The position numbers were made by a program, and so were the translations under genes. The notes below the pieces were generated by a model, which saw only the letters and a list, made by a program, of their open reading frames with translations, was not told the origin of the DNA and ran no database searches. Shown here piece after piece: positions 1 to 2,846 of a stretch of 13,343 nucleotides of DNA. How positions within the stretch are numbered: position 1 is the stretch's first letter; each line of letters begins with the position of its first letter. This stretch comes from Hydrogenophaga sp. (GTDB lineage: Bacteria > Pseudomonadota > Gammaproteobacteria > Burkholderiales > Burkholderiaceae_C), in NCBI GenBank assembly GCA_030684755.1, contig JAUXXN010000569.1, positions 1 through 13,343 of the forward strand, given 5' to 3'.

Positions 1-1391
1 GCGTGCTGGCCGAAGTGGCCTCGGGCAGCGCGGCGGACGTACACGCGGCGGTGCAGGCTGCCAAAGACGCGTTCCCGGCCTGGGCCGGTCTGCCCGCCAC
101 CGAGCGCGCCAAAAAAATCCGGGCGCTGGGCGATTTGATCGCCAAGCACGTGCCGGAGATTGCCAAGACCGAGACCAACGACACCGGCCAGACCATTGCG
201 CAAACCGGCAAGCAACTGGTGCCGCGTGCGGCGGACAACTTCACCTATTTCGCCGAAATGTGTACCCGCGTGGACGGCCACACCTACCCCACGCCCACGC
301 ACCTGAACTACACGCTGTTCCACCCGGTGGGCGTGTGTGCGCTCATCAGCCCGTGGAATGTGCCGTTCATGACGGCGACCTGGAAAGTGGCGCCCGCGCT
401 GGCGTTTGGTAACACGGCGGTGTTGAAGATGAGCGAACTCAGCCCCCTGACCGCTGCTCGTCTGGGCGAGCTGGCGCTGGAGGCGGGCATTCCGGCGGGC
501 GTGCTGAACGTGGTGCACGGTTTTGGGCAGGACGTGGGCGAGCCGCTGTGCGCGCACCCGGACGTGCGCGCCATTTCCTTCACCGGTTCCACCGCCACCG
601 GCAACCGCATCGTGAAGGCCGCAGGGCTGAAGAAGTTCAGCATGGAGCTGGGCGGTAAGAGCCCGTTTGTGGTGTTTGCCGACGCCGACCTGGACCGTGC
701 GCTGGACGCGGCGCTGTTCATGATCTTCAGCAACAACGGCGAGCGCTGCACGGCGGGTAGCCGCATTTTGGTGCAGCAAAGCATTTACGCCGACTTCGCC
801 GCCCAATTCGCCGAGCGGGCGAAGCGCATCACCGTGGGCGACCCGCAAGATGAAAACACCACCATTGGGCCGATGATTTCCAAGGCGCACTTGGCCAAGG
901 TGCGCAGCTACATTGAACTTGGGCCGAAAGAGGGCGCGACGCTGTTGTGTGGCGGGCTGGACCGGCCTTCGTACGCCGCCGAATTGCCCGCCCATGTGCA
1001 GGCGGGCAACTATGTCTGGCCCACCGTGTTTGCGGATGTGGACAACCGCATGAAGATTGCGCAGGACGAGATTTTTGGCCCGGTGGCGTGTTTGATTCCG
1101 TTCAAAGACGAGGCGCACGCGATTGCGTTGGCGAACGACATTGCCTATGGGTTGTCCAGTTATGTGTGGACCGAGAACATTGGCAAAGCGCACCGCGTGG
1201 CCGCAGCGGTGGAGGCGGGCATGTGTTTTGTGAATTCGCAAAACGTGCGCGATTTGCGCCAGCCGTTCGGCGGCACCAAGGCCAGCGGCACCGGGCGCGA
1301 GGGCGGCACCTGGAGTTACGAGGTGTTTTTAGAGCCCAAGAACGTGGCGGTGTCGCTTGGGTCGCACCACATTCCGCATTGGGGGGTGTGA
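1..1391 (+). CDS. hpaE: 5-carboxymethyl-2-hydroxymuconate semialdehyde dehydrogenase, 5' partial
   Basis: NAD-dependent aldehyde dehydrogenase that oxidises the ring-cleavage semialdehyde made by HpaD to 5-carboxymethyl-2-hydroxymuconate in the cytoplasm. Counting from the GTG at position 3, 462 residues are visible. The family catalytic set is present: Asn119 in SPWNVPF, Glu215 in MELGGKSP and nucleophile Cys249 in NNGERCTAGSR. The C-terminus ends HIPHWGV, as in E. coli HpaE (IPKWGV). The segment VLAEVASG aligns with an internal stretch of E. coli HpaE about 28 residues from its start, so the GTG is not the true start and the gene begins upstream of the window. The order hpaE-hpaD-hpaF-hpaH supports HpaE over a generic aldehyde dehydrogenase. 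It is separated from hpaD by a repeat-filled gap, so the two may not share one simple transcript. Confidence 0.93.
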   Translation, partial: VLAEVASGSAADVHAAVQAAKDAFPAWAGLPATERAKKIRALGDLIAKHVPEIAKTETNDTGQTIAQTGKQLVPRAADNFTYFAEMCTRVDGHTYPTPTHLNYTLFHPVGVCALISPWNVPFMTATWKVAPALAFGNTAVLKMSELSPLTAARLGELALEAGIPAGVLNVVHGFGQDVGEPLCAHPDVRAISFTGSTATGNRIVKAAGLKKFSMELGGKSPFVVFADADLDRALDAALFMIFSNNGERCTAGSRILVQQSIYADFAAQFAERAKRITVGDPQDENTTIGPMISKAHLAKVRSYIELGPKEGATLLCGGLDRPSYAAELPAHVQAGNYVWPTVFADVDNRMKIAQDEIFGPVACLIPFKDEAHAIALANDIAYGLSSYVWTENIGKAHRVAAAVEAGMCFVNSQNVRDLRQPFGGTKASGTGREGGTWSYEVFLEPKNVAVSLGSHHIPHWGV

Positions 1392-1428: not shown

Positions 1429-1532
1429 GATCGGGCGGGCGGTGTGCCCGGCTCCGCGAATGTCCCCCGGAACGGGCTGCGCCCGTCCCTCCTCCTTTAC
1501 TTCGCTGCGCCGGACACACCGCCCGCCCGATC
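1429..1532 (-). ncRNA. Structured repeat element, copy A (covarying stem-loop)
   Basis: Read on the minus strand, this is a long imperfect hairpin. An outer stem pairs 1509-1532 with 1429-1452 (24 pairs, one U-G wobble). Inside are a GCA/GGA internal loop, a stem GCGAAGU / ACAUUCGC with one bulged A, an AAAGGAGG segment, and an apical stem ACGGGC-GCA-GCCCGT (1472-1486). The 57-base core (1453-1509) matches copy B at 1751-1807 in opposite orientation. The outer 23 and 18 core bases are identical, and only the apical stem and the next pair differ, with pairing kept. It starts 38 bases after the hpaE stop. A structured RNA, or a hairpin mobile element of REP or IS200/IS605 type, would both fit. 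I do not recognise the family. Confidence 0.6.
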
Positions 1533-1725
1533 TGCCAGCCGTGTTGGTGCGCCACGCATTCGATGCATTTTTGCTGTGTTCGTTACGCCAGGCATACCGC
1601 CAACCCGATCTTCAAACCCAGTGGGCGCACAACGCCTTCCATGCCTCTCAGCAAGCACACAGCCCGCCCAATCTGCCAGCTTGGTGGGCATACAACGCAT
1701 CCAACACCTCCCAGCGCAGGTGCAG
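1518..1725. repeat. Three diverged copies of a 60-80 base repeat
   Basis: Three related stretches begin near 1518, 1596 and 1659 with ACCGCCCGCCCGATCTGCCA, ACCGCCAACCCGATCTTCAA and ACAGCCCGCCCAATCTGCCA. Each is followed by a GTGGGCGCACAACGCnTTCC-like segment. In one plus frame the units read PPDLPAVLVRHAFDAF, QPDLQTQWAHNAFHAS and PPNLPAWWAYNASNTS, so several open frames cross the region. They look like translated repeat rather than protein. The first unit overlaps the outer arm of copy A, which suggests the structured elements and this repeat spread or decay together. Confidence 0.55.
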
Positions 1726-1833
1726 TGGGTTGGTCACGCCGGGTGCCCACCGCAGCGAAGTAAAGGAGGAGGGTTTTGCGCAGCAAAACCCGGGGGACAT
1801 TCGCGGAGGTGGGCGCCCGGCGTGATCAACCCA
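1726..1833 (+). ncRNA. Structured repeat element, copy B (covarying stem-loop)
   Basis: Plus-strand counterpart of copy A. The outer stem pairs 1726-1751 with 1808-1833 (26 pairs, two G-U wobbles) and is unrelated in sequence to the outer stem of copy A. Inside, GCGAAGT (1755-1761) pairs with ACATTCGC (1797-1804, A1799 bulged), AAAGGAGG lies at 1762-1769, and GGG (1771-1773) pairs with CCC (1789-1791). The apical hairpin is TTTTGC-GCA-GCAAAA (1774-1788). All four apical base-pair changes relative to copy A are compensated on the other arm. The element ends 86 bases before the hpaD start, so it would be in the 5' leader if hpaD is transcribed through it. Confidence 0.6.
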
Positions 1834-1919: not shown

Positions 1920-2846
1920 ATGGGCACCGTAGCACTGGTCGGAAAAATCACCCACGTCCCCTCCATGTACCTCAGCGAGCTCGACGGCCCGCGCCAAGGC
2001 ACACGGCAAGACGCCATCGACGGCCACACAGAAATTGCCCGCCGCTGCAAAGCCCTCGGTGTTGACACCATCGTCGTCTTCGACACCCACTGGCTCGTCA
2101 ACGCCAGCTACCACATCAACTGCGCGCCCCACTTTGCAGGCACCTACACCAGCAACGAACTGCCCCACTTCATCAGCAACCTGCCTTTCTCCATCCCCGG
2201 CAACCCCGCGTTGGGCCAGTTGCTGGCCAAGGTGTGCAACGAACACGGCGTTGAAACCCTCGCCCACCACGCCACCACCCTCGGCCCCGAATACGGCACC
2301 CTCGTGCCCATGCGCTACATGAACGCCGACCAGCACTTCAAAGCCGTCTCCGTCTCGGCCCTGTGCACCGTGCACTACCTCAACGACAGCGCCCGCCTGG
2401 GCTGGGCCATGCGCCGTGCGGTGGAAGACCACTACGACGGCACCGTGGCTTTTCTGGCCAGCGGCAGCCTGAGCCACCGCTTCGCCCAAAACGGCCTCGC
2501 GCCCGAATTCGCCTTCAAAGTCTGGAGCCCGTTCCTAGAAACGCTGGACCGCCGCGTGGTGCAGATGTGGGAAAACGGCGAGTGGGCCGACTTCTGCGGC
2601 ATGCTGCCCGAATACGCCGCCAAGGGCCATGGCGAAGGCTTCATGCACGACACCGCCATGATGTTGGGCGTCTTGGGCTGGAGCGAATACGCGGGCAAAG
2701 CCGAGGTCATCACGCCGTACTTCGGCGCCAGCGGCACCGGGCAAATCAACGCCGTGTTCCCCGTCACCCCCGTCACCGGCCAAGCCATTCCCAAAGCGCA
2801 GGCATCCACCGCAGACGGCTTCAGCCTGGTCAGCAACAGGCTTTGA
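1920..2846 (+). CDS. hpaD: 3,4-dihydroxyphenylacetate (homoprotocatechuate) 2,3-dioxygenase
   Basis: Class III (LigB-type) extradiol dioxygenase of 308 residues that opens the homoprotocatechuate ring to 5-carboxymethyl-2-hydroxymuconate semialdehyde using non-haem Fe(II). The N-terminus KITHVPSMYLSEL, the segment VVFDTHWLVN, and ASGSLSHRF and LPEYA further on match E. coli HpaD from memory. His12 and His57 are the expected metal ligands, and an acidic ligand is expected near GHGEGFMHD. The ATG at 1920 is preceded by AGGAGA and gives the family N-terminus. An in-frame TTG at 1776 would add 48 residues encoded by the repeat element and is rejected as the main start. hpaF follows after 14 bases, consistent with one transcript. 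Confidence 0.93.
   Translation: MGTVALVGKITHVPSMYLSELDGPRQGTRQDAIDGHTEIARRCKALGVDTIVVFDTHWLVNASYHINCAPHFAGTYTSNELPHFISNLPFSIPGNPALGQLLAKVCNEHGVETLAHHATTLGPEYGTLVPMRYMNADQHFKAVSVSALCTVHYLNDSARLGWAMRRAVEDHYDGTVAFLASGSLSHRFAQNGLAPEFAFKVWSPFLETLDRRVVQMWENGEWADFCGMLPEYAAKGHGEGFMHDTAMMLGVLGWSEYAGKAEVITPYFGASGTGQINAVFPVTPVTGQAIPKAQASTADGFSLVSNRL

Follow-up and report, generated by a model that had tools for sequence, protein, structure and literature searches.

An apparently undescribed, widespread family of divergent twin-hairpin repeats in the Burkholderiaceae

The window, which is the whole 13,343-nucleotide stretch of DNA analyzed here, carries two hairpin-forming arms that occupy the intergenic region separating hpaE from hpaD in a homoprotocatechuate operon. 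The arms lie on opposite strands and were scored with R1, a covariance model built from 21 arms found by sequence. The features of the locus are as follows.

3..1391, plus strand: hpaE, 5-carboxymethyl-2-hydroxymuconate semialdehyde dehydrogenase (TIGR02299 above cut-off), upstream of the arms and in the same direction as the operon
1429..1532, minus strand: arm A, R1 match of 94.9 bits at 1427-1534
1456..1505, minus strand: conserved core of arm A (GCGAAGTAAAGGAGGAGG ... GGGGGACATTCGC)
1533..1725, no strand: spacer between A and B, about 190 bp as against 41-44 bp in most pairs
1726..1833, plus strand: arm B, R1 match of 100.1 bits
1755..1804, plus strand: conserved core of arm B
1920..2846, plus strand: hpaD/hpcB, 3,4-dihydroxyphenylacetate 2,3-dioxygenase (TIGR02298 above cut-off), the downstream neighbor

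The anatomy of arm A begins with a 24-pair outer stem, followed by a 3-nt internal loop (GCA/GGA) and a 5-pair inner helix. Further in lie a purine-rich internal loop (GTAAAGGAGGA / GGGGGACA), an apical stem, and a GCA triloop. Arm B is built in the same way, with an outer stem of 26-27 pairs and the apical hairpin TTTTGC-GCA-GCAAAA. An earlier note on this DNA had described A and B as inverted copies of one structured element, and a repeat search of the window recovers them as an inverted pair in which each arm is also a self-complementary stem. Its account of fully paired outer stems and of an apical hairpin in which the GCA loop is constant and four stem changes between A and B are all compensated is accurate, as is the first identical core flank of 23 nt; the second flank is indeed shared but runs to 19 nt rather than 18. 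The outer stems had been called unrelated, which they are not: 12 of 24 pairs are identical between A and B, 9 are changed on both sides, and 3 on one side. Folded as RNA, arms A and B have z scores of -9.7 and -12.2, with none of 200 shuffles as good for either arm. The long spacer in the window seems to have been enlarged by partial tandem copies of the arm A foot and linker. Diverged 45-nt copies at 1515-1559, 1593-1637, and 1656-1700 (71% and 76% identity) are listed by the general repeat search of the window and not by the tandem repeat search.

The arrangement A-spacer-B is one composite repeat made of two outward-pointing hairpins of ~100 nt, usually about 240 bp in all. Most exact-core matches are surrounded by this layout, that is, a minus-strand hairpin, a short linker, and a plus-strand hairpin, and the arms share a fixed unpaired purine core, RTAAAGGRGGA / GGRGGACA. 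Among 101 parsed clusters (identical cores counted once, related copies kept in), 70 are divergent ('-+'), none is convergent ('+-'), one is '++', and 30 are single, a class that may hide pairs whose second arm escaped the strict pattern. The span of the divergent pairs peaks at 241-247 bp. Linkers between the arms often have a central dyad of their own when inspected by eye, for example GTTGATCAAC. Two loci, L035 (758-1598) and L053 (617-1605), have outward arms about 650-780 bp apart, and the 173-aa open frame between those of L035 could be a captured gene, or the locus could consist of two single arms. Variovorax-type copies may carry a 15-base tandem tail. At L064 (genome G412), the outer end of arm B shows by eye about six 15-base tandem units (CGCCCTGAACAGCAG), and this tail decays outwards and varies between copies, as slippage or the trace of a copying mechanism might leave it.

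The repeat is common within the family and scarce outside it. A search with the covariance model R1 gives matches at E <= 0.001 in 179 of 399 family genomes and 81 of 141 genera. A sequence-only core pattern, AAGGRGGAG-N4..30-CGGRGGACA with both purines left free, finds 1,511 arms (743 forward, 768 reverse) in 171 of the 399 genomes and 77 of the 141 genera, while its reversed control gives 1 match; the richest genome holds 91 arms. An exact form of the core has 7 carriers among 299 family genomes, one of which (G285) alone has 30 matches. The window's own genome has eight sense arms, with a second pair on contig 590. In a class-wide sample, 3 of 274 genomes match. Two of them are the window's own genome and another from its genus; the third, G450, is the one carrier outside the family, and its copies have the core and form divergent pairs. 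Three large Variovorax plasmid records also carry the repeat, and viral contigs gave no match to one exact 22-base version of the core.

The conservation of the fold is well supported across these copies. In the 21 arms found by sequence, a set that contains related copies, 95.9% of cells pair and 27 of 38 pairs show double-sided changes. The covariation score is 0.579 against 0.175 in shuffles (none of 500 reaches it) and at most 0.13 in slid alignments. The proposal of a conserved fold, in which the unpaired segments are fixed and the stems are free to change, stands, and homologues that keep the sequence without covarying, which would have spoken against it, are not what the 21 arms show. 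The same picture emerges from 76 arms with distinct stems, out of 128 unique among 150 aligned, where covariation is found at nearly every outer-stem pair and even the outermost pairs vary freely. The outer-stem cells of these arms comprise 1,597 Watson-Crick pairs, 173 G·U, 7 A·C, 44 other combinations, and 3 gaps.

The mismatches also reveal which strand folds. A G·U pair corresponds to A·C on the complementary strand, so the ratio of 173:7 identifies the strand bearing the core as the folding strand, and a model artefact does not account for the bias because it stands at 52:0 in the 21 arms found by sequence. A role as an mRNA leader, a terminator, or a determinant of mRNA stability should leave the sense arm the more constrained of the two. 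In operon contexts, G·U:A·C is 55:5 in 25 sense arms and 57:4 in 26 antisense arms, as assigned by a crude codon-composition gene caller that left 28 of 101 clusters unscorable for arm sense and flank orientation. A role in host mRNA fails to explain a bias that is equal in sense and antisense arms, and a consensus scan of 1380-1930 returned no promoter-like or terminator-like site. A host mRNA leader or terminator is accordingly not supported as the source of the fold constraint. Folding of each arm on its own strand, with the strand specificity that this entails, is very likely real.

The unpaired core shows a constraint of its own. In a structure-blind mutual-information scan, helix pairs take the first 14 ranks. 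The top non-helix column pairs are the neighbors 119-120 and column 34 with 119 and 120, then 51-52, and then 41-112. The signal at columns 34, 119, and 120 follows two forms of the inner helix, which in the 76 arms reads GCGAA/TTCGC in 27 and GCGAA/TGAGC, with tandem G·A, in 20, is absent in 8, and takes other forms in the rest. Column pair 41-112 links the R of the 5' GGRGGA with the R of the 3' GGRGGACA. By eye, the 150 sequence-only matches listed have AG in 130, GA in 15, AA in 4, and GG in 1 at this pair, a coupling with a Fisher p of about 4e-16 when relatedness is ignored. The 128 unique arms have AG in 113, GA in 10, CG in 2, AA in 2, and a gap in 1; distinct arms are non-independent events, and pair counts such as these, like the loop counts below, carry shared ancestry. 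As a rule, exactly one A is found at this R pair.

Whether the folded molecule is DNA or RNA is a separate matter, and single-stranded DNA is at least as likely as RNA, on balance slightly the more probable. In DNA, C(GNA)G caps d(GCGNAGC), a mini-hairpin of extraordinary stability. An apical hairpin could be parsed in 127 of 128 unique arms, giving 75 distinct ones, of which 46 have GNA triloops, 45 of them closed by C-G, as against two GNRA tetraloops and no UNCG. DNA mini-hairpins with GNA or GNNA loops are described as extraordinarily stable (PMC4686876). The prevalence of this DNA-type cap is what tips the balance, slightly, toward single-stranded DNA. Fold energies fail to separate the two, since the sense strand folds better than its complement under DNA and RNA parameters alike, and this result lowers the odds for DNA a little. 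For the two window arms, sense and complement give -47.7 vs -43.2 and -46.9 vs -40.5 kcal/mol with DNA parameters, and -82.1 vs -72.8 and -83.7 vs -69.7 with RNA parameters (arm B with a few more bases). The tolerance of G·U and the tandem G·A pairs are compatible with RNA as much as with DNA. The earlier note had inferred a conserved RNA fold; the conserved fold holds, but the equal bias in sense and antisense arms and the DNA-type triloops do not bear out the RNA.

A structured RNA nevertheless deserves consideration, although we regard it as unlikely. Each arm would be transcribed from its own strand and act as a small RNA or a 3'-UTR element, and the purine core would, on the same doubtful footing, serve as a binding site for a ribosome or for a protein that binds RNA. 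The inner helix exchanges tandem G·A, which is a typical RNA trait, as are covariation and the tolerance of G·U; several GGA motifs are unpaired, and the core AAAGGAGG resembles a strong Shine-Dalgarno sequence. Among the 73 clusters that could be scored, the flanking genes are co-directional in 53, convergent in 17, and divergent in 3, so that 70 have the copy downstream of one gene or more. The sense strand is also the better RNA folder, and the fold is kept at hpaE-hpaD. Against this, the G·U bias does not depend on whether an arm is operon-sense or operon-antisense, the loops are mostly C(GNA)G and hardly GNRA or UNCG, and promoter-like and terminator-like sites are absent between 1380 and 1930. 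A match in Rfam is lacking as well. Rfam 15 gave none at gathering score for the window and 16 further loci, and none up to E = 5 in 1400-1900, in line with the earlier statement that the element fits no known RNA family.

The distribution of copies suggests that the repeat was likely dispersed by past mobility and was at least formerly mobile. Near-identical composites occupy many sites in Variovorax-like genomes. For example, in the 31 genomes of the genus of G285, composites of about 264 bp occur at several sites each in many genomes, among the matches listed. One operon gap, for which 21 of 30 fetched loci were examined and 15 were measurable on both flanks, is filled in 5 (317-396 bp), empty or nearly so in 8 (9-47 bp), and occupied by 129-151 bp of other sequence in the remaining 2. 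By eye, this position lies within an operon, immediately ahead of the ribosome-binding site of the gene that follows. A second site is occupied by the composite in one relative, and the two genes there are 5 bp apart in an annotated Variovorax record. The gaps are too diverged for any target-site duplication to be read at their junctions. Filled and empty sites, the unity of the composite, and copy numbers of up to 91 arms per genome thus place the hairpin-ended mobile element, formerly the alternative, ahead of a host RNA element. Two Variovorax plasmid records considered as a recent insertion polymorphism were set aside, as both hold a copy, one with a ~174-bp central deletion. The comparison of L175 with L166 shows such a loss in a Variovorax record, of about 174 bp from one arm into the other, as palindromes undergo.

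Dispersal is not the whole story at the window's own site. The 184 fetched stretches with a core, many of them overlapping or from one genus, include the arrangement hpaE-pair-hpaD in four genera (the window, L009, L093, and L094). An HpaE neighbor is also found in L021 and L182, from one further genus, and a different gene follows in L021. Over 48 stem letters, the A arms of the four genera share 32-41 and the B arms 29-37, whereas A and B share 20-28; the copies look orthologous because sharing between the same arms exceeds that between A and B. Twelve comparisons, which share sequences and are non-independent, contain 101 changed pair cells, of which 66 are double and compensated, 26 are single and still paired, and 9 are broken. 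The eight arms have 15 G·U and no A·C. Apparently, a single insertion has been kept across four genera with compensatory changes on both strands. The fold thus seems to have been maintained in place in both arms, which is more than a signal for mobility alone would need. Such retention would call for some function of the resident copy, perhaps in cis and at the level of DNA, or for repair that continues or recurs. By eye, the copies in L026, L107, and L108 lie just downstream of a gene ending ...GNIPL (carboxyltransferase-like), a site in three genomes that is perhaps recurrent or retained, like hpaE.

One form of repair could in principle keep stems complementary with no selection on the fold. 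Long near-perfect palindromes undergo template-switch correction, and switching between hairpin arms (quasi-palindrome correction) would fit the finding that apical stems differ with compensation even among close copies. It makes no prediction about the constant unpaired core or the non-complementary A/G swap, and it leaves the strand-specific G·U unexplained unless the sense strand alone ever folds. We judge it improbable as the source of the complementarity.

It is similarly hard to credit a classical terminal-inverted-repeat MITE of a DDE transposase, in which the folds would be incidental. Variovorax-type composites do end in TGTTCAGGGC...GCCCTGAACA, but by eye these ends are not evident in most of the other genera listed, and recognition of double-stranded DNA leaves the strand-specific fold unexplained. 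A search for a mobilizing enzyme in the vicinity found no recurrent transposase recognizable among clustered open frames (>=80 residues) around 47 loci. The clusters are one large group read as frames through the element itself, paralogues of ABC proteins and aldehyde dehydrogenases, and small ones.

Inverted pairs, intergenic position (with genes placed by a crude caller), many copies, and a constrained fold also recall the REP/BIME systems, in which case a RAYT (Y1) transposase would move the arms as oversized REPs. As portrayed in PMC2817692, REP/BIME are short intergenic palindromes with many copies, inverted pairs, and a fold constraint. The arms described here differ from that portrayal in being ~100 nt rather than 20-40 nt, in having a fixed purine internal loop and stems free to vary, and in lacking both the conserved GT(A/G)G head and a flanked transposase gene (PMC2817692). 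By eye, the flanks listed have no common head. Y1_Tnp genes are present in 25 of 28 genomes tested, mostly one per genome, but of the genomes chosen, 14 of the 16 with arms and 11 of the 12 without arms have them, and the arm-bearing G301 and G074 are without one. In the arm-free genome G015, the Y1 transposase matches number 20, an expansion of the IS200-like type. None of 27 Y1_Tnp loci (of 30 fetched, three of G015 left out) has an arm within about 1.5 kb to either side. The earlier note had held that a known IS or REP end with its transposase would count against its reading; such a partner is absent from the frame clusters at the 47 loci and from the 27 Y1 loci. All told, mobilization by a RAYT is very improbable.

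Several other known elements resemble the repeat in part. The attC sites of integrons are recognized as folded single strands and have a variable stem and apical part with conserved unpaired landmarks. The arms share the variable stem and apical part and the conserved unpaired landmarks, and they differ in forming opposed pairs and in a stem foot without conserved letters, its pairs varying freely. IS200/IS605 elements have subterminal hairpins that act in single-stranded DNA at the element ends, whereas the two hairpins under constraint in this repeat are on opposing strands, with no Y1 gene attached. The bcr-type, ERIC, and NEMIS repeats are mobile or once mobile, intergenic, and foldable, and in these respects they are like the arms; we know of no strand-specific covariation with a coupled purine contact in them. 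All three are named in PMC3110155.

The closest repeat in the literature is BRE (Hot et al. 2011), an intergenic element of ~90 bp in Burkholderiales including Comamonadaceae, which is described as abundant in Bordetella and often in tandem arrays (PMC3110155). BRE and the arms are thus of like size and occur partly in the same families, but tandem arrays contrast with the divergent pairs found here, where 1 cluster of 101 is '++' (PMC3110155). No core match was obtained in 9 genomes from the genus that contains Bordetella genomosp. 2, a set that may not include B. pertussis or B. bronchiseptica. R1 has two weak matches in these genomes (E 0.002 and 0.098), both to hairpins without the core. 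One is an 87-nt near-perfect hairpin at L061 1501-1587 (GGTGTCTGGC...GCCAGACACC), possibly the published BRE, and the other, at L062, is terminator-like. The missing core in these nine genomes and the pairs in place of arrays do not support identity with BRE, and the repeat is likely distinct from BRE as published. A search of open-licence literature found no description of it. Taken together, the composites apparently form a widespread family of divergent twin-hairpin repeats that has so far gone undescribed.

The reading we prefer, with confidence a little short of even, is that of a non-autonomous composite dispersed in the Burkholderiaceae, folded as single-stranded DNA, and moved by a protein acting in trans. 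Each arm folds on the strand that bears its core, the one with its 3' end pointing outwards, and would do so as single-stranded DNA exposed during replication, where DNA is broken, or in an intermediate of transfer. The hyperstable C(GNA)G mini-hairpin would cap the folded arm, and the protein, recognizing the purine core in its folded state at either end, would move or copy the composite. Copies would be tolerated in short gaps downstream of genes, much like REP/BIME, and some would be kept for a long time. More speculatively, and with the doubt that this deserves, the ends may be a natural structured single-stranded DNA with a purine-only tertiary core, perhaps G-quadruplex-like with GGRGGA facing GGRGGA, that is read by a new hairpin-directed, DNA-moving enzyme encoded elsewhere in the genome.

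Of the genomes sampled from this large bacterial family, about four in ten carry these repeats, and the repeat family could give a name to many unannotated intergenic hairpins of these bacteria. The evidence for the fold is unusually strong for a DNA repeat, being strand-specific, independent of the direction in which the host operon is transcribed, and extended by a coupling outside Watson-Crick pairing. Should DNA be what folds, the family would be a clear natural case of evolution acting on single-stranded DNA structure, and a specific binding protein is predicted.
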